IMG/VR virus record: IMGVR_UViG_3300028829_006118
Coordinates: 1 to 35,225 of that record
DNA length: 35,225 nt
Strand: one strand, 5' to 3'
Source of the DNA: a virus
The translations under genes were made by a program, and so were the position numbers. The notes under the pieces were generated by a model, which did no database searches, had not been told where the DNA came from, and worked only from the letters and a program-made list of their open reading frames with translations. Shown here one piece after another: positions 6,404 to 31,281 of the stretch. How positions within the stretch are numbered: the first letter of the stretch is position 1; every line of letters begins with the position of its first letter.

Positions 6404-7504
6404 TTATGATGGTTTGTTTAATAAATCTGCTATTATATGAATGTCCTTAAACTTGTACTTGTAATTCATGTCAAAATCAAGCAGATTTTTTGGTAGTAAT
6501 TCGGCATTTGGCATGCTATCGTGGAATGATTTGCAGGCTTTAAGTAGATTCAAAGGACCTCTACTGAAGGTCTTGCGGACTGGATAGAGATGGTGTAATT
6601 TTCCGTAGAGTTTGTCTCTTAATTTTTTATTTGAAATCAATATAGGCAATGAGCAATACACGTGGGTGTTGCCTTTGGGCACTATTGGAAACTGGATATT
6701 GTCATTTGTCACGTAGTATGTCAGGTGTTTTACAAAATCTCGGCGCTCCTTTATCCTATCTTTGAGTCTAGGTAACTGTTTTCTTATGAGACAGGCGCAA
6801 ATTTCGGTCATCCTAAAGTTGTGTCCAAAATCTCCGTCAAGGCCTTCTCCGTGGTTCCTAGACAACATCATACGTTTTGCCAGTTTTTTGTTGTTTGTGA
6901 TCACTATGCCACCTTCTCCGCAGTTGAGATGTTTGTGCCAGTTGAAACTGAATCCGCCGATGTCTGTGAGAGTCCCGGTGTATTTGTTGTTCACCTTACT
7001 ACCTATCGCCTGTGCAGTATCGGATATAGTGTATAGTCCATGTTGCTTTGCTAATTTTAAAACAGGATCTATATTACATGACTGTCCGTGCATTTCTGTT
7101 ACCAATATGGCACCTGTGATATTTGTGATTTTTTCTTTGATTTTTTGAGGATCAATGTTGAAAGTACTTGGATCGATATCAGCGAATACGGGAGTGCAGT
7201 TGTTTTTGACTATTGCTGACACGGTTGCACTCATGCTCCATGGACTACAAATTATTTCTGAGCCTTGATCTAATTTCAAACTTTCTATCGCTATCTCTAG
7301 TCCGGATGTCCAACTGTTCACGGCAACAGCATACTTGCATCTAAAATATCTACAAAATTCTTTCTCTAAAGATTTTACCTGGTCTCCGCCATAGAAACTT
7401 TCTCCAGGACCAGCGTTGAAGCCAGATAGGTTTTCTTGCTTCAACAATTTTGATACCTCGATGATGTCTTTCAGATCGATGGTTTGCTGTTTCTTTACTA
7501 GCAT
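6404..7504 (-). CDS. DegT/DnrJ/EryC1-type sugar aminotransferase
   Basis: A 366-residue fold-type I PLP enzyme of usual family length. Visible motifs are NAGPGESFYGGDQVKSLEKE at the N-terminus, AVNSWTSGLEIAI (cofactor phosphate contact), the cofactor-binding Asp162 in TISDTAQAIGSK, and GGFSFNWHKHLNCGEGG with the Schiff-base Lys191. Family members transaminate keto groups on nucleotide-linked sugars or cyclitols for surface polysaccharides and antibiotics. Its ATG overlaps the stop of the oxygenase remnant (TAATG), so it is translated in the same operon as the asparagine-synthase-like gene. The block has low GC, which suggests acquisition from outside. It would supply an amino sugar; the sugar is not identifiable. 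Confidence 0.85.
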   Translation of the reverse strand: MLVKKQQTIDLKDIIEVSKLLKQENLSGFNAGPGESFYGGDQVKSLEKEFCRYFRCKYAVAVNSWTSGLEIAIESLKLDQGSEIICSPWSMSATVSAIVKNNCTPVFADIDPSTFNIDPQKIKEKITNITGAILVTEMHGQSCNIDPVLKLAKQHGLYTISDTAQAIGSKVNNKYTGTLTDIGGFSFNWHKHLNCGEGGIVITNNKKLAKRMMLSRNHGEGLDGDFGHNFRMTEICACLIRKQLPRLKDRIKERRDFVKHLTYYVTNDNIQFPIVPKGNTHVYCSLPILISNKKLRDKLYGKLHHLYPVRKTFSRGPLNLLKACKSFHDSMPNAELLPKNLLDFDMNYKYKFKDIHIIADLLNKPS

Positions 7505-7638
7505 TATTTCCTCACACCGGTGATCGTGAGTGTGTGCTTGGGAGCAATACCAAAGTTTGCACTAGCATGTAACACGCCCGTCGAGACAATGTAAGTGTCG
7601 CTTGGTTTCCGATTGGCTATCACTGCTATGTTTTTCAT
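7504..7638 (-). pseudogene. C-terminal remnant of a 2OG/Fe(II) oxygenase (44 codons)
   Basis: A 44-codon frame with an ATG at 7638 and a TAA at 7504-7506. Its last 37 residues align with the C-terminus of the oxygenase at 9825-10445: KPSDTYIVSTGVLHASANFG here against KPGDAYIIPPNVFHASANFG there, then IAPKHTLTITGV against IAPKYSLTITGV. Only the third metal ligand (LHASAN) remains; the HxD half of the domain is absent. It is joined to its neighbours by ATGA at the start and TAATG at the end, so it may still be translated and may keep ribosomes flowing between the flanking genes. It is probably the scar left when the flanking genes were inserted into an oxygenase array. Confidence 0.75.
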
Positions 7639-8909
7639 ACTAATTTGTTCCCGTCCATAGCACTTATATTCTGATCCTCACCTAACTTTATTTCTTTGCC
7701 TGCAAATCCTATCTTACTATCAACTGCTAATGAATAGTTGTTTTCTCTCATATATTCGTACATCCAATTCTTGTATCTTTTATTCTTAAGTTCTTGTGTG
7801 GTGTTCAACCATGCCTGGACAAGGTTTACATCCAGCAAAGGTTCTTTGTGCTGGATACCGTAGTACCCCGTGATTATGTCTAGACGGGAAACCAATTGAC
7901 TCTGCCTATTCAAATACTCATGCCACGGCCAGGCAACCTCTAACTTCTGTGGGAAGAGTCCTCCGAATAAACTGTTATGTCCCATTTGTTGACCAACATA
8001 GCCATAGTCGGAATACATTTCATCACCGCCATTTCCAGATAGTATATTTGACTTTTTAATTTTGTTCATGTACTTGCACACCCTAGCAACGGCTTCGCCG
8101 GCCTCTGAGAATATTTCTTTTTGAACGTAAATTGATTCCAGGTTCTTTCTTTCCTGTCCATCCATTTGTCCATCTTCTAACAGTATCCTTCCCTTATGAC
8201 TTTGTATCCTTTTGGCAAGGACTGTTTTATCTTCTGTGTTCGCAAAACTTACACTGAAATTTGTGTGTCCTAACTTTGCCACTGCACATGAAATCACCCC
8301 ACTATCATATCCACTGCTCAACGTAGTGATACTTTGTTCATCGAACCTCATTTTCACGCTCTCTTCAAGTGCATCAAATACTTTTGTGTGAGCGTTATCT
8401 TTTTGAGACAGGTTCCATTTTTTGATAGTGTGCTTTTGCACCGCTCCGTTCTTCTTATCTAAAACCAACATGGTGTCGGCACCAAGTGGATAGGCATGGC
8501 GTTTTTGATTTCGTATCATGTCGGGCATACTACAAAACCAAAATGTTCCATCAGGATCAACAGCAACAAAAACCTGTTTGGTTTTCCATACATCAGTTGC
8601 GATTATATGGTATCTATGGGTGTTGATGTAAATGCTGTAATCGCCGTTTACTGTGTTCAACAATTCTTTTATCTGTTCAACATCGTCAGTCAAATTGTCA
8701 GCGATACTTTGGAATCCAGCACCATAACAGAAGCCATCTGATACAAGGAAACCATTCTTACCTTTAAACACTCCACTGTGGTCTCGTGATTGCCTGTGTA
8801 TGATATTCACGTCGTCTAATTTTTTCTCAGATGTGACTTGTCCTCTCCTTAAGAAAATATCCGTAGGCACCGGAACATATTTGCTGTTACTGACGTAGAA
8901 ACTACTCAT
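7635..8909 (-). CDS. Asparagine-synthase-like amidotransferase without a catalytic N-terminal Cys
   Basis: A 424-residue protein shaped like a short AsnB. The N-terminal 170 residues have the beta-rich layout of a class II glutamine amidotransferase (NGDYSIYINTHRYHIIATD, GTFWFCSMPDMIRN), but residue 2 is Ser instead of the nucleophilic Cys, so glutaminase activity is not expected. The synthetase half carries the PP-loop TTLSSGYDSGVIS (SSGYDSG at 198-204) and the family motif NILSGNGGDEMYSDYGY near 288-304, then KEPLLDVNLVQAWL. Such enzymes activate a carboxylate with ATP and join it to ammonia or an amine. The ends overlap both neighbours, in line with operon translation with the SGNH-like gene and the aminotransferase. 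Confidence 0.82.
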   Translation of the reverse strand: MSSFYVSNSKYVPVPTDIFLRRGQVTSEKKLDDVNIIHRQSRDHSGVFKGKNGFLVSDGFCYGAGFQSIADNLTDDVEQIKELLNTVNGDYSIYINTHRYHIIATDVWKTKQVFVAVDPDGTFWFCSMPDMIRNQKRHAYPLGADTMLVLDKKNGAVQKHTIKKWNLSQKDNAHTKVFDALEESVKMRFDEQSITTLSSGYDSGVISCAVAKLGHTNFSVSFANTEDKTVLAKRIQSHKGRILLEDGQMDGQERKNLESIYVQKEIFSEAGEAVARVCKYMNKIKKSNILSGNGGDEMYSDYGYVGQQMGHNSLFGGLFPQKLEVAWPWHEYLNRQSQLVSRLDIITGYYGIQHKEPLLDVNLVQAWLNTTQELKNKRYKNWMYEYMRENNYSLAVDSKIGFAGKEIKLGEDQNISAMDGNKLV

Positions 8910-15377: not shown

Positions 15378-15405
15378 ATTATAGCATATTTCTGAGATCT
15401 GTCAA
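15378..15405 (-). promoter_or_regulatory. Consensus sigma70 promoter, TTGACA-N16-TATAAT
   Basis: On the minus strand TTGACA (15400-15405), a 16-bp spacer and TATAAT (15378-15383) match the consensus at all twelve positions. The start point, near 15371, gives the ParB-like gene a leader of about 65 nt. The promoter sits just behind the stop of the small secreted protein at 15407. Confidence 0.88.
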
Positions 15406-16386: not shown

Positions 16387-16590
16387 CTAACGTCCTATCT
16401 TTTTCTTCCTACCTAGTGGTATCTGTTGATCTTTGATGAAGAGCTCTCCGCCCTTTGTCATCCACTCGATAGTTATCATCTTTGATTTAGAACTGCCCTG
16501 AAATGATTTCACTGCCTTCTTGAAAGACATAGCCTCTACTTCTTTAGTCTCTGTTCCGTCTGTGATTTTGAATATTCTATTTTTTGGCAT
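16387..16590 (-). CDS. Small basic hypothetical protein
   Basis: The start MPKNRIFKITDGTETKEVEA at 16590 (an in-frame ATG lies 6 nt upstream at 16596) is preferred over the longer frame to 16662, which would run back across the tmRNA promoter. The 67-68-residue product has a central helix AMSFKKAVKSFQGSSKSKMI and a C-terminal QIPLGRKKKIGR, and is probably a small beta-alpha-beta protein binding nucleic acid. It is transcribed away from the tmRNA, so the region 16590-16650 is a divergent intergenic region. Confidence 0.58.
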   Translation of the reverse strand: MPKNRIFKITDGTETKEVEAMSFKKAVKSFQGSSKSKMITIEWMTKGGELFIKDQQIPLGRKKKIGR

Positions 16591-16611
16591 ATACATTAAT
16601 TTAGCACAGAA

Positions 16612-16640
16612 TTGACAGAACGTCAACCTTAAGGTATAAT
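16612..16640 (+). promoter_or_regulatory. Consensus sigma70 promoter of the tmRNA gene
   Basis: The plus strand reads TTGACA (16612-16617), exactly 17 bp of spacer and TATAAT (16635-16640), a full match to the consensus. The expected start point is near 16647, a few nt before the acceptor piece of the tmRNA. Confidence 0.88.
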
Positions 16641-16653
16641 TATATTTGTAAAT

Positions 16654-16945
16654 GTTGATCAAGATGAAATAAACATTTCGGACAGGAGTTCGAATCTCCT
16701 CACCTCCACCAATTTATTACGGGTGGCTTATGTAATCCCTTCCGGGGGTGTACTTGGTTTCGACGGGTGTGTAAAGATCTTGGGAGTTTATCCAGTAGGC
16801 ACGAGGTAACGTCCAGTTTTTAAATGCAAACAAAAAAGCATTAGGGTTTGCTGACCTAACAGTCAGTATGCCTGAATTGAGATTAGCGGCGTAATAACCA
16901 ATAATTTCAGGGGTTTGGCCCACCTTGCAACAGAACGGGCCTTAA
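16654..16945 (+). ncRNA. ssrA: Two-piece (circularly permuted) tmRNA
   Basis: tmRNA frees ribosomes stalled on broken mRNA and tags the peptide for proteolysis. In the permuted form the 3-prime acceptor piece is encoded first. Here the acceptor piece (about 16654-16711) has ATTTCGGAC, identical to the E. coli tmRNA segment, a T-arm with GAGTTCGAATCTC, and CACCTCC-A-CCA. A 32-nt segment to be excised follows. The coding piece then starts GGGGGTG (16744-16750), which pairs with CACCTCC (16701-16707) over seven pairs, one of them G-U, and continues TTTCGACGGG, the tmRNA D-loop-like signature. ATCTTG (16777-16782) pairs with CAAGAT (16660-16665) as helix P2. The tag frame lies at 16826-16894 and a GGCCC/GGGCC stem (16917-16941) follows. 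The 3-prime end is approximate. Confidence 0.92.
16826..16894 (+). other. tmRNA tag-peptide reading frame (22 codons)
   Basis: The resume codon is GCA at 16826, preceded by the usual A/T-rich stretch. The frame reads ANKKALGFADL then TVSMPELRLAA and ends in tandem TAA TAA (16892-16897). It begins Ala-Asn and ends Leu-Ala-Ala, matching the pattern of bacterial tags (E. coli ANDENYALAA) whose LAA end is read by ClpXP. It is about twice the E. coli tag length. The start codon is inferred from that pattern. Confidence 0.8.
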
Positions 16946-16953
16946 ATACTGTT

Positions 16954-17169
16954 ATGTTCAAACTATTCGCGACCATGTGCTTCCTGGTCAACGGTGCCGT
17001 AGAGTGCACCAATTATGACGACAGCATGGCCACGGTATATGCGGATCTGGCCAGTTGTGAGAAAGATGCGGAGTATCGTTTCTATGGCATGGCAGAAGTC
17101 TTCCAAGCATACAATCAACCATACGAAAAAATATTAGTGGGCTGTAAAGAGGCCGATGACGATTCCTAA
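16954..17169 (+). CDS. Small secreted four-Cys protein (copy 2)
   Basis: From the ATG at 16954 (MFKLFATMCFLVNGAVEC) the protein has 71 residues; a longer frame from 16915 would start inside the tmRNA and is rejected. Cys residues are at 9, 18, 35 and 64. The spacing from the second to the fourth Cys equals that of the protein at 15407-15619, making these paralogues on opposite strands flanking the tmRNA. The hydrophobic start looks like a signal peptide, and the C-terminus is acidic (CKEADDDS). There is no Shine-Dalgarno; it may be read from the tmRNA transcript. Its stop overlaps that of the convergent gene at 17166. Confidence 0.58.
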   Translation: MFKLFATMCFLVNGAVECTNYDDSMATVYADLASCEKDAEYRFYGMAEVFQAYNQPYEKILVGCKEADDDS

Positions 17170-19858: not shown

Positions 19859-21499
19859 TTAGATTGTACAGGCGTCGCACTCACCGTCGTCTGCGAGTGT
19901 ACTTATCTGCTCAACTGGATTTTCAGGTTTAAGGATCACATCCTCTCCGTCGTCTTCCAGTTGTGCGGCAATACCCGCTGGTTGTACGTCTTCTTCCTCC
20001 CCTTTGAAGTCGTATGTGTTCTGGTAATAACTTGTCTTCCAACCAAGTTTGTATGCTGTCAGCATGTCCTGTGCCATCACTGACAGAGGTACTTCGTTGT
20101 TCTCGAACTGTAATGGATTGTAACTCCAGTTACCACTGATCGCTTGATCAAAATATTTCTGCATCATTGCCACAACATTGATGTAACCCTCGTTGCTTGG
20201 CATGTCCCATAGCAGTGTGTAATCATTTTTTAGTTTGGGGAACCCTGGTGCTATCTGCTTCAGAGGACCTTTCTTGCTTTTCTTTATGGCCATCAGTGCC
20301 CTCGGTGGCTCGATGCCGTTGGTCTCGTTTGAAACCACTGAACTGCTCTCACTTGGCATCTGTGCCGACAATGTGCTGTGTCTCAATCCATACTTGGCTA
20401 TGTCTTTCCTTAGGCTCTCCCACGCCATTCTCTGTTTGTGTGGTACAATATTATCAACATCCTTCTTGTAGTGATCTATTGGTAGCAAGCCGTCTGCGTA
20501 TTTGGTTCTCTCAAACCCTTCACACTTGCCCTTCTCCATTGCTATGTTGCAACTAGCTCTCAATAAATTATATTGGAACGCCTCAGATAATCTGTCAACT
20601 AGATCCCACGCCTTTGGATCTGAATACTTGACACCGTTCTTGGCCAGGTAGTGTGCAAGTCCGATGTAACCAATTCCGAGACTTCTTCTTTTCTTTGTAG
20701 AAACTTCTGCGGCCTTCACTGGATAGTCTTGGTAGTCAATTATCTGTTCAAGTGCTCGCACACTCAGATCACAGATGTTTTCTAGTTCACTCAAATCATT
20801 TAGTCCACCAACGTTGACCGCTGAAAGGATGCAGAGTGCAATCTCACCTTGTTCGTCGTGTATGTCTTGTATGGGTGTTGTGGGTAGTGTGATCTCTTGA
20901 CAAAGGTTACTCATAGAAACTTTGTCTTTGAATGAACTGTGAGAGTTACAGTGATCCAAGTTCATTATGTAGATACGTCCTGTCTCTGCTCTCTCTTTTA
21001 AAAGATCAAAGAAAAGGTCCTGTGCTGGTACAGTCTTCCTTGGTATGGTTTTGTCTGCCTCATACTTCAAGTACAGGTCATCGAACTCTTCTGTACCAAA
21101 CGCTTCGTACAGTCCCGGAGCCACGTGTGGAGATATAAGAGTGATGTCTTCCTCGTTCATGAATCTCTCATAGAACAATTTAGATATCTGTATAGAGTAA
21201 TCCATTCTTCTTACCCTGTTGTCTTCTGTGCCTTTGTTGTTTTTTAATACCAGAATGTCTTCGATCTCTGGGTGCCATATAGGGAAGTGTACAGTTGCAT
21301 TTCCTCCACGCACACCATTCTGTGTGCAACATCTCACAGTTGACTCGAATTTCTTTAGGAACGGAATCACACCCGTGTGTTGAACCTCCCCTCCCCTGAT
21401 CTTGGAGTTTATGCCTCTGATACGCCCAGCGTTGATTCCAATGCCGGCCCTACGTGCAACATAAAGTCCAATAGCCATGTCACTAGAAAATATACTAGG
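19859..21499 (-). CDS. nrdA: Class Ia ribonucleotide reductase alpha subunit, C-terminal part in the +1 frame
   Basis: The homologous part starts at SIFSSDMAIGLYVARRAGIG and runs about 545 residues to the C-terminal redox pair GECDACTI. Active-site motifs are intact: RAGIGINAGRIRG, GGNATVHFPIW, SMSNLCQEITL (Asn, radical Cys and Glu), ALCILSAVN (second redox Cys), MPSESSSVVSNETNGIEPP and the radical-transfer Tyr pair in KTSYYQNTYD. It lacks the N-terminal ATP cone, which is encoded upstream in another frame. The open frame extends back to 21616, but those 40 codons are out-of-frame reading of the first part. An internal ATG at 21478 has no Shine-Dalgarno. It is joined to the first part only by a +1 shift at CCC TAG (21495-21500). 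Confidence 0.88.
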   Translation of the reverse strand, partial: PSIFSSDMAIGLYVARRAGIGINAGRIRGINSKIRGGEVQHTGVIPFLKKFESTVRCCTQNGVRGGNATVHFPIWHPEIEDILVLKNNKGTEDNRVRRMDYSIQISKLFYERFMNEEDITLISPHVAPGLYEAFGTEEFDDLYLKYEADKTIPRKTVPAQDLFFDLLKERAETGRIYIMNLDHCNSHSSFKDKVSMSNLCQEITLPTTPIQDIHDEQGEIALCILSAVNVGGLNDLSELENICDLSVRALEQIIDYQDYPVKAAEVSTKKRRSLGIGYIGLAHYLAKNGVKYSDPKAWDLVDRLSEAFQYNLLRASCNIAMEKGKCEGFERTKYADGLLPIDHYKKDVDNIVPHKQRMAWESLRKDIAKYGLRHSTLSAQMPSESSSVVSNETNGIEPPRALMAIKKSKKGPLKQIAPGFPKLKNDYTLLWDMPSNEGYINVVAMMQKYFDQAISGNWSYNPLQFENNEVPLSVMAQDMLTAYKLGWKTSYYQNTYDFKGEEEDVQPAGIAAQLEDDGEDVILKPENPVEQISTLADDGECDACTI

Positions 21500-22250
21500 G
21501 TGAATCCACAAGTACACAACTGGCAAACTGACGAATAGGAGTCCTAACACCAGCCATAACAGGTGTCGGTATATTGATTTTGTGCTGGCTAATTGCGTCA
21601 TAATATTTCTTAACATAACTCATCCTTGTTTTTGTTGGGTAGTCCGCGAACAGTGTGGCCGCGATCATCATGTACATGTCTTGTGGTGTCTCGTATATCT
21701 GTCCTGAACTTCTGTCCTGCACTAGATACTTGTCACATATCTGTCTTAGGCCCGCGTAAGTGAATTTGAGATCTCTTTCTCTCTTGATCCACGTGTTGAA
21801 TTTCTTTATGTCAGTCTTTGTGTACTTGTCCAGTATGCCTTTGTCATACACACCCGATCTAACGTTCCTCAGGATCAGTTTCAACAACGGAATGTATTCG
21901 TACTGTCCGTGTGCTTCCTTCCTCACATCATATGAAAGAAGTCTCGCCGCGGCGTACTGATAGTTTGGAGTCTCAAGACTGATGAGATCGTTCGCTGACC
22001 TGACCAAAACATTTTGTATGTCCTTTGTTGTCATGCCATCATAGAACTGTATGTTGGCGTTCATTTCAATCTGTGAACTTGACACTCCAGACAGACCTTC
22101 ACACGCCTCTTCAACGACGAAATGGATTTTGTTTATGTCAAGGTCCTCCAGCCTGCCATCTCTTTTTTGGACTTTGATCGTACTAGAGTTGGTGTTCGGC
22201 ATTAAGGTTTTATATTTTTTGTGTTTGATTTTTGTTTTTGTTGTATCCAT
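21495..22250 (-). CDS. nrdA: Class Ia ribonucleotide reductase alpha subunit, N-terminal part ending at a frameshift
   Basis: 251 residues that include the ATP-cone (TIKVQKRDGRLEDLDINKIH), the NrdA N-domain (LLSYDVRKEAHGQYEYIPLL, DMYMMIAATLFADYP) and the segment TPVMAGVRTPIRQFASCVLV, with the first redox cysteine Cys245. It then reads VDSP and stops at TAG, six residues after that cysteine. Homologues continue here through a short loop into the part encoded at 19859-21499. Compared with E. coli NrdA, the spacing from Cys245 to RAGIG is short by 11 nt, which accounts for the shift. The sequence at the break, TCA CCC TAG T, permits tRNA-Pro to slip +1 from CCC to CCT. Start: ATG at 22250, with an alternative at 22202 (MPNTNSSTIK). 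Confidence 0.88.
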   Translation of the reverse strand: MDTTKTKIKHKKYKTLMPNTNSSTIKVQKRDGRLEDLDINKIHFVVEEACEGLSGVSSSQIEMNANIQFYDGMTTKDIQNVLVRSANDLISLETPNYQYAAARLLSYDVRKEAHGQYEYIPLLKLILRNVRSGVYDKGILDKYTKTDIKKFNTWIKRERDLKFTYAGLRQICDKYLVQDRSSGQIYETPQDMYMMIAATLFADYPTKTRMSYVKKYYDAISQHKINIPTPVMAGVRTPIRQFASCVLVDSP

Positions 22251-25486: not shown

Positions 25487-26503
25487 ATGTCGTATATTAC
25501 AACCAACAATATTACCAGCATCAACGCCGAACTCACCAATTACTGTAATGCCGCTTGTCCCCTGTGTGCTAGGTATTTCATAGATGGTGTTTTAGACAAG
25601 GAACGTGTAAATTCTAATCACACCACATTGGCTTTTTTAAAAGATAAAATTGGACACAACATAGTCTCCCAATTGGAACGATTTACATCTTGCGGTAATC
25701 TAGGTGATGGTTCTATGAATCCTGAATGTTTGGAGATCTATCAATGGTTACGTGTTGTCAATCCAAATATACGATTACATTTACATTCCAATGGTGGTGC
25801 GCGGACACCAGAGTTCTGGCGAGAGATGGCGAAGATAAATGTCTCTGTGACATTTGCCATAGATGGACTAGAGGATACTAATCATCTGTATAGGAGAAAT
25901 GTTAAATGGTCTAAGTTAATGGAAAATGTTTGTGGATTTATAGATGCTGGCGGAAACGCAGGATGGGCCATGCTAATTTTCAAACACAACGAATCACAGA
26001 TAGAACAGTGTAGGTTGTTGTCAAAGGAATTAGGATTTAATAGTTTCAACATACAGCAATCTGCTAGATGGGCTGATTTTGATTACATAGGCAACTGGAG
26101 AGAGATAGAAAAAGTTCCTGTGGATGGGTATTTCTTAGAAAAATCATCCCAAATGTCTGCTCCTGCGATAGGATCCGGAGGTAACAGTTCAAGAATAAAT
26201 GTTACTAAAAATGATTTTGCTACAAAAAAAATAAATTGTCAATCACACGATATAAAAAATAATAAAATTGAGATATACCTTGCGGCGAACGGAGATGTGT
26301 CTCCCTGTTGTTGGTTGGGCGATCTCAAACGTCATGAATCAAAAAATATAATAAAAGACTACGACAAAGTTAACCTTCATCATACATCTTTGGAAGACAT
26401 ACTATCTGGAGACTATTTCAAACAACTATGTGATGGTATCGCCGGTTTAGAAAATGCTTATAGGTTGCACACATGTTATTTCACATGTGGAGTAAATTCT
26501 TAG
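25487..26503 (+). CDS. Radical SAM protein with a SPASM-like C-terminus
   Basis: A 338-residue protein with the 4Fe-4S cluster motif Cys20-x3-Cys24-x2-Cys27 in LTNYCNAACPLCARYF, a glycine-rich SAM-binding stretch (LERFTSCGNLGDGSM), VTFAIDGLEDTNHLYRR and WAMLIFKHNESQI strands of the TIM barrel. The C-terminal Cys set (INCQSH, DVSPCCWLGD, LHTCYFTCGV) is suited to auxiliary clusters as in SPASM proteins. Such enzymes modify peptides, sugars or other small molecules through a 5-prime-deoxyadenosyl radical. It is a lone plus-strand gene with visibly lower GC than its neighbours and no Shine-Dalgarno, in line with recent acquisition. Its stop faces the stop at 26505. Substrate unknown. Confidence 0.85.
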   Translation: MSYITTNNITSINAELTNYCNAACPLCARYFIDGVLDKERVNSNHTTLAFLKDKIGHNIVSQLERFTSCGNLGDGSMNPECLEIYQWLRVVNPNIRLHLHSNGGARTPEFWREMAKINVSVTFAIDGLEDTNHLYRRNVKWSKLMENVCGFIDAGGNAGWAMLIFKHNESQIEQCRLLSKELGFNSFNIQQSARWADFDYIGNWREIEKVPVDGYFLEKSSQMSAPAIGSGGNSSRINVTKNDFATKKINCQSHDIKNNKIEIYLAANGDVSPCCWLGDLKRHESKNIIKDYDKVNLHHTSLEDILSGDYFKQLCDGIAGLENAYRLHTCYFTCGVNS

Positions 26504-30557: not shown

Positions 30558-31175
30558 TTAAGATTTAGTCCAAATTTCGTCACTATTGACACGTGATTGA
30601 TATGTGTATCCAAGACCTGTGAGTATTTCTTTGGCTTTATGCACTATCAAAGGTCTCTTACGCCTCTTCATCTCGATGTTGATCGTGGGACTGTTTGTCT
30701 TTAGTGTGTTCCGGGCACCTTCCAGCAACGGTATCTCAAACCCATCCACGTCTATCTTGACGTAGTCAACATCTGTGAGATTGAAACTGTCCAGTGTCCT
30801 ACATTCTATGTCGCCGTCATTGGGTTCAGTGTCTCCCAACACGTCGTTCAGGTGCGTGGCGTTGACACCTTGCGTGGCGTTGTGCGAGTGACTGCTCAGT
30901 CCATACGGATGCAGTGTTACATTGTTTTCCTTGATGTTCCTGTTGAAGCACTCTCTGAAGTTGGGGTTTGGTTCGAAGCATATCACATGGTCAAACTTCC
31001 GAGACAGGGATCTCGTCCATTCACCCACGTGGGCGCCTATGTCTACAGCGTTCCTCCATTGGCTCACGTACCTGAGACCGTTATCCCTTTGCTGTTTCTG
31101 TGTGTCCGCTTGTTCAGTTAAAGTTGGTTCGGCTTGCCACCTGTTGTATACCCAGAAACTACTTTCGCTTGGCAT
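30558..31175 (-). CDS. FkbM-family methyltransferase
   Basis: From MPSESSFWVYNRWQAEPTLT at 31175 the protein has 205 residues; the frame is open to 31259 but those codons overlap the Cys-rich gene in another frame. The SAM-binding motif I is NAVDIGAHVGEWTRSL (residues 43-58), followed by DHVICFEPNPNFRECFNRNI (acidic loop), then CRTLDSFNLTDVDYVKIDVD and GFEIPLLEGARNTL, typical of FkbM. These enzymes O-methylate sugars or hydroxyl groups of glycans and natural products. It is adjacent to the divergent glycosyltransferase-like gene cluster, suggesting capping or marking of a surface glycan. The target is not determinable. Confidence 0.85.
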   Translation of the reverse strand: MPSESSFWVYNRWQAEPTLTEQADTQKQQRDNGLRYVSQWRNAVDIGAHVGEWTRSLSRKFDHVICFEPNPNFRECFNRNIKENNVTLHPYGLSSHSHNATQGVNATHLNDVLGDTEPNDGDIECRTLDSFNLTDVDYVKIDVDGFEIPLLEGARNTLKTNSPTINIEMKRRKRPLIVHKAKEILTGLGYTYQSRVNSDEIWTKS

Positions 31176-31281
31176 CACATTCCTTACACGCACAGTCAGG
31201 ACAGTCCCTGCACTCGGTACAAGATTGTCTACAGTGCTGTTCGCATCCACACTTCTCACAAATAAACTTTATCATCGTCAT
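31159..31281 (-). CDS. Cys-rich 40-residue protein, metal-binding type
   Basis: A short frame from ATG 31281, which overlaps the upstream stop as ATGA, to TAG at 31159-31161. The product starts MTMIKFICEKCGCEQHCRQS and contains ten Cys in 40 residues, arranged C-x2-C-x1-C-x3-C-x3-C-x2-C-x2-C-x2-C-x1-C-x2-C. The CxC and CxxC spacing is that of zinc- or copper-cluster proteins such as metallothioneins, or of a small zinc ribbon. It ends ECDAKRK. An AAGGA Shine-Dalgarno precedes it. It overlaps the start of the FkbM gene by 17 nt in a different frame. The ten regularly placed Cys make a chance frame improbable. Confidence 0.65.
   Translation of the reverse strand: MTMIKFICEKCGCEQHCRQSCTECRDCPDCACKECDAKRK

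Follow-up and report, generated by a model that had tools for sequence, protein, structure and literature searches.

A complete two-piece tmRNA gene with a long tag in a T4-like marine phage, most likely of SAR11

A complete, circularly permuted (two-piece) tmRNA gene was identified on the plus strand at positions 16648–16945 of a 35,225-base IMG/VR virus record, the whole of which is referred to here as the window. The record carries T4-like (Kyanoviridae-type) genes, and we consider it highly probable that the gene specifies a functional tmRNA, encoded by a T4-like phage of the sea whose host is most likely SAR11, which would carry out ribosome rescue and tagging in dependence on its host. 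That phages can encode tmRNAs is already known.

ARAGORN and the covariance models concur on a phage-borne permuted tmRNA, as had been predicted from the sequence alone. The gene scores 96.1 bits with the Rfam model tmRNA_permuted (RF04321; gathering cut-off 47), lower than the host genes found (mostly approximately 115–165 bits), which fits divergence of the phage gene, and ARAGORN calls a permuted tmRNA at 16616–16985. Of the two Rfam families named in the original prediction, alpha_tmRNA (RF01849) was recovered at 76 bits against a gathering cut-off of 50, with the match ending at 16946, whereas cyano_tmRNA (RF01851) did not reach its cut-off, being absent from the gathering-threshold matches, in which overlapping members of a clan are represented by the best one alone. 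The pieces follow the permuted order, i.e. a CCA-ending piece, an intervening segment, and then the 5′ acceptor strand and the tag (Table 1). The predicted acceptor helix (GGGGGTG with CACCTCC) and P2 core (CAAGAT with ATCTTG) were both recovered, as was the 32-nt segment between the encoded CCA and the 5′ G, and the two tmRNA signatures are present as ATTTCGGAC (16675–16683) and TTTCGACGGG (16758–16767). The gene begins slightly upstream of the predicted extent of 16654–16945, with P2 pairing from 16648 (16648–16652 with 16787–16791, and 16660–16665 with 16777–16782).

Table 1 Features of the tmRNA locus, in window coordinates
Feature	Position	Strand	Basis or remark
Divergent small gene (MPKNRIFK...)	16387–16596	−	Conserved neighbour, found in 14 or more of 21 loci
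σ70-type promoter of the tmRNA gene, TTGACA-N17-TATAAT	16612–16640	+	12/12 consensus match
Inverted repeat TTGAC-N5-GTCAA	16612–16626		1 in window versus 0.10 expected
Acceptor (tRNA-like 3′) piece	16648–16711	+	RF04321 alignment, covariation; 5′ end putative
P2 5′ strands	16648–16652 and 16660–16665	+	Within acceptor piece
Inner stem	16674–16680	+	Acceptor piece
T arm	16684–16700	+	Acceptor piece
Acceptor 3′ strand, CACCUCC	16701–16707	+	
A73	16708	+	
Encoded CCA	16709–16711	+	
Intervening segment, 32 nt	16712–16743	+	Between CCA and acceptor 5′ G; excision predicted
Coding (mRNA-like) piece	16744–16945	+	RF01849 match, pair counts; 3′ end approximate
Acceptor 5′ strand, GGGGGUG	16744–16750	+	Followed by D-loop region
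P2 3′ strands	16764–16769, 16777–16782, 16787–16791	+	Coding piece
Pseudoknot-like element before resume codon	16792–16812	+	Stems of 2–3 bp, CC/GG and ACG/CGU; by eye
Tag reading frame	16826–16897	+	Resume codon GCA; ARAGORN, 21 of 21 relatives
3′ H-type pseudoknot	16910–16941	+	GGGGU/ACCUU and GGCCC/GGGCC; 90–92% of cells paired
71-aa Cys-containing protein gene	16954–17169	+	Directly downstream of tmRNA

Selection on the helices was assessed by a pair count that covered 39 named pairs across 21 aligned loci, which comprise 20 distinct sequences. Paired cells make up 95.8% of the total, versus 73.6 ± 1.0% in shuffled alignments and 36.8–49.7% with the partners slid. Among the 20 distinct sequences, 175 cells are changed on both sides of a pair versus 55.4 ± 6.4 in shuffles, and both-sided change is found in 26 of the 39 pairs. 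All helices of the tRNA-like domain show heavy compensatory change, by which the acceptor, T and P2 helices are kept across the 20 sequences, with change at two pairs of the acceptor helix, and the 3′ pseudoknot covaries also. The G3·U70 alanine identity pair is invariant, the column pair 134–181 reading U-G in all 20 distinct sequences. The compensatory change and the invariant G3·U70 together argue that the RNA is under selection, and the tmRNA is therefore very probably functional. Folding energy of the region alone, taken as a single sequence, is not unusual (z −0.48) and was discarded as uninformative. In the stretch before the resume codon, the two short stems of the pseudoknot-like element appear by eye to change together, relatives having either GGU/ACC with CUG/CAG or CGU/ACG with CCG/CGG; as the loop is one base longer in some variants than in others, this element was left out of the formal pair count. 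Within the intervening segment, the motif GGTGGCTTATGTAATCCC is near-identical across most relatives in the alignment, while the surrounding helices vary. A hairpin in this segment (ATTAC/GTAAT) and a pairing of its GGUGG with CCACC at the acceptor end were also considered, and both lacked covariation support. Tag-based scans recovered genes of this kind on at least 30 viral contigs, and 22 of the 28 whole records searched exceed the Rfam cut-off.

The consensus promoter proposed for the gene is present, and its TTGACA is kept in all 21 related loci with TATAAT or TTAAAT 17 nt further on, which shows that the promoter, too, is under selection. Perfect σ70 sites number three in the window, versus 0.075 expected from mononucleotide shuffles, the other two lying on the minus strand at 15405 and 3302. 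The inverted repeat at the −35 region occurs at the same position in 10 of the 21 related loci, and a minus-strand promoter-like site extends from 16626 to 16598. We infer that the repeat combines the −35 elements of two divergent promoters, which overlap there; a repressor operator fits less well, because most loci have a related divergent gene on their upstream side. Homologues of this small divergent gene were found in Pelagibacter phages only, among 50,697 phage records. On the downstream side, the 71-aa protein has a hydrophobic N-terminus and conserved cysteines, and a related ORF occupies the same place in 14 of the 21 loci; the protein has no match in Pfam, PHROG or NCBIfam and none in INPHARED. 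Its gene is probably co-transcribed with the tmRNA. As no terminator-like site was found between the two, the 3′ end of the coding piece is probably formed by processing. The position of the locus is fixed across the phage clade, and the T4-like (Kyanoviridae-type) genes on the 35-kb contig bear out the original view of a tmRNA embedded among phage genes. The fixed neighbourhood, the divergent promoter arrangement and the clade-specific 22–25-aa tag go beyond what that first view could show.

The ribonucleotide reductase and DUF6267 proteins of the virus are closest to those of T4-like cyanophages and Pelagibacter phage HTVC008M (77% to the latter for nrdA), and a contig that shares its gene order and tag has been assigned to a Candidatus Pelagibacter MAG. 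Taken by itself, the binning would be weak host evidence, because the bin holds another permuted tmRNA, a divergent one that lies next to phage-like genes (contig 10), and no ordinary SAR11 tmRNA was found in it. The kinship of nrdA and DUF6267, the homologues of the divergent gene and the MAG contig together point, indirectly, to SAR11 as the likely host, and the virus would therefore most likely be a SAR11 (Pelagibacter) myophage. No smpB was found in 15 phage records searched, 13 of which are contigs and possibly fragments, suggesting that the SmpB of the host would be used. The nrdA gene itself (19859–22250, minus strand) is present as two ORFs, with a few codons missing relative to its relatives and a stop at approximately 21497; the relatives are intact (800–801 aa), and the split reflects either an assembly error or a real break. 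The window further encodes a radical SAM protein (25487–26503, plus strand) and, on the minus strand, a sugar aminotransferase (6404–7504), an asparagine-synthase-like protein (7635–8909) and an FkbM methyltransferase (30558–31259), which are likely host-surface or auxiliary metabolic genes.

The tag called by ARAGORN is ANKKALGFADLTVSMPELRLAA, a peptide of 22 aa whose frame opens with the alanine resume codon GCA and closes with GCG GCG TAA TAA. Across the clade tags range from 22 to 25 aa, the middle varying in sequence and length, while ANK(K/R)ALGFAD forms the first ten residues and (L/M)RLAA the C-terminus in all 21 loci. The K/R alternative at codon 4 is the sole amino-acid change among the first ten tag codons, codons 1, 2, 6, 7, 10, 12 and that of the last Ala vary synonymously, and the N- and C-terminal parts are held by purifying selection at the amino-acid level. 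An RNA hairpin (GCAAAC/GTTTGC) was rejected as the main cause of the tag's conservation, because genes of one type (L015) change GCA AAC to GCT AAT, which weakens the hairpin and keeps Ala-Asn. Host tags are 9 aa long in sampled SAR11 (ANDKFALAA) and 9–15 aa in other sampled alphaproteobacteria, and the commonest length in the tmRNA database is 10 (PMC11915505). The long tag is thus atypical of the presumed SAR11 host, and may therefore do more than, or something other than, the host tag. A tag that is under purifying selection and clearly unlike sampled host tags indicates that the peptide itself, and not only the release of the ribosome, is selected in the virus. The peptide was not found in INPHARED (50,697 phage records), and a search of 190 alphaproteobacterial genomes returned none except the Pelagibacter MAG contig. 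When the KK form of the tag was searched for in the genomes of 84,980 species, only this contig and two non-tmRNA genes came up.

We propose that host RNA polymerase transcribes the gene from the σ70-type promoter early in infection, and that host RNase P and 3′ trimming enzymes would then remove the 32-nt segment, leaving the acceptor and coding pieces held together by the acceptor and P2 helices. The RNA would be charged with alanine by the host AlaRS via G3·U70 and delivered to stalled ribosomes by host SmpB and EF-Tu. Translation would resume at the GCA at 16826, adding the 22-aa tag ending in RLAA and freeing the ribosome, and the tagged fragment would be marked for ClpXP-type proteolysis by the host. 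In this way the phage may keep ribosome rescue running during the degradation of mRNA and host RNA.

The length of the tag raises the question of whether the RNA serves instead as a re-tagging device, which would out-compete the host tmRNA and add a longer, phage-specific peptide to stalled proteins. We consider this rather unlikely; the outcomes that it could have are handover to a different adaptor or protease, sparing of the proteins, or selective recycling of host proteins. Such a device would agree with a tag of 22–25 aa against 9–15 aa in sampled hosts, and with purifying selection on ANK(K/R)ALGFAD and LRLAA around a middle that varies in sequence and length. Long tags are found in unrelated viral one-piece tmRNAs as well: in a comparison unmatched for host or phylogeny, and using ARAGORN tag calls of which a few look doubtful, 12 of 22 unique viral one-piece tags have at least 18 residues, whereas only 1 of 42 tags from hosts in two phyla does (p ~1e-8), but the tags of viral permuted tmRNAs outside the clade are not longer than those of hosts (p 0.23). 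The C-terminus moreover is still -LAA, like that of ordinary degradation tags, and no adaptor or protease partner was found. A narrower proposal, which we offer only tentatively, is that the SAR11-type myophage clade evolved a lengthened, conserved tag that carries a further recognition element in addition to its C-terminal degron, letting the phage redirect the place and the speed at which stalled proteins are broken down; if so, the long tags of viral one-piece tmRNAs that are unrelated would represent parallel cases.

Host-dependent rescue and tagging is also to be preferred over two further readings. Mycobacteriophage DS6A likewise encodes a tmRNA-related RNA, which consists of the tRNA-like domain and lacks a coding part, and offers a precedent of a truncated phage tmRNA with inhibition (PMC4131195). 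A comparable competitor or dominant-negative RNA, tying up host SmpB, seems very improbable for the present gene, which is complete: the full tag frame with its resume codon and double stop is conserved along with the 3′ pseudoknot, as, it appears, is the pseudoknot-like region before the resume codon. Since tmRNA genes are, as is generally known, common integration sites (PMC11915505), the locus might also be something that integration left behind, either an attachment-site remnant or a host tmRNA gene carried along as a passenger copy. This was rejected, its probability being close to negligible: the gene is complete and has its own promoter, compensatory evolution extends over many phages at one locus that is fixed across the clade, the proteins scanned yielded no integrase, and in the tree the gene lies close neither to SAR11 nor to other host genes. 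Recent capture from a SAR11 host was likewise rejected, as the phage genes form a clade of their own (100/100 support) on a long branch.

Permuted tmRNAs in phages are not new as a kind and are already catalogued, which answers the question raised with the original prediction, having been described in Methylophilales phage Melnitz (MZ577097), where a two-piece ssrA was reported (PMC9004378), and annotated in Pelagibacter phage Mosig (MT647606); two-piece genes account for 53 of 133 unique phage tmRNAs, mostly marine (PMC9004378). In the tree, the present clade stands apart from the genes of hosts, Mosig, HTVC008M and Melnitz, and it is apparently unlisted in the collections compared here (the tmRNA Website set lying outside them). 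Melnitz is similarly a T4-like marine phage of the Kyanoviridae, and its permuted tmRNA is of the alphaproteobacterial type and reported near an early promoter (PMC9004378). It differs in its tag (ANDNYVPVDYALAA, 14 aa), in its placement elsewhere in the tree and in its surroundings, adjoining a late-transcription coactivator, whereas the present gene lies beside the PAAR/nrd region. Mosig and HTVC008M, which the nrdA and DUF6267 proteins mark as the nearest isolates, are SAR11 myophages that also carry permuted tmRNAs, but at a different locus, outside the present clade and with tags of 9 aa (GEDNFALAA) and 10 aa (ANFNEYALAA), respectively, versus 22–25 aa here. The tmRNA of alphaproteobacterial hosts (RF01849, Caulobacter type) shares the gene order, the acceptor and P2 pairing and the 3′ pseudoknot, with the shorter tags of 9–15 aa setting it apart from the phage clade. 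The HTVC008M gene (KC465899, 45121–45462) is unannotated in its GenBank record. Among the IMG/VR loci examined (L144–L222), viral one-piece tmRNAs often have tags that far exceed the sampled host one-piece tags in length, at 20–31 aa, and that fall into several unrelated sequences.
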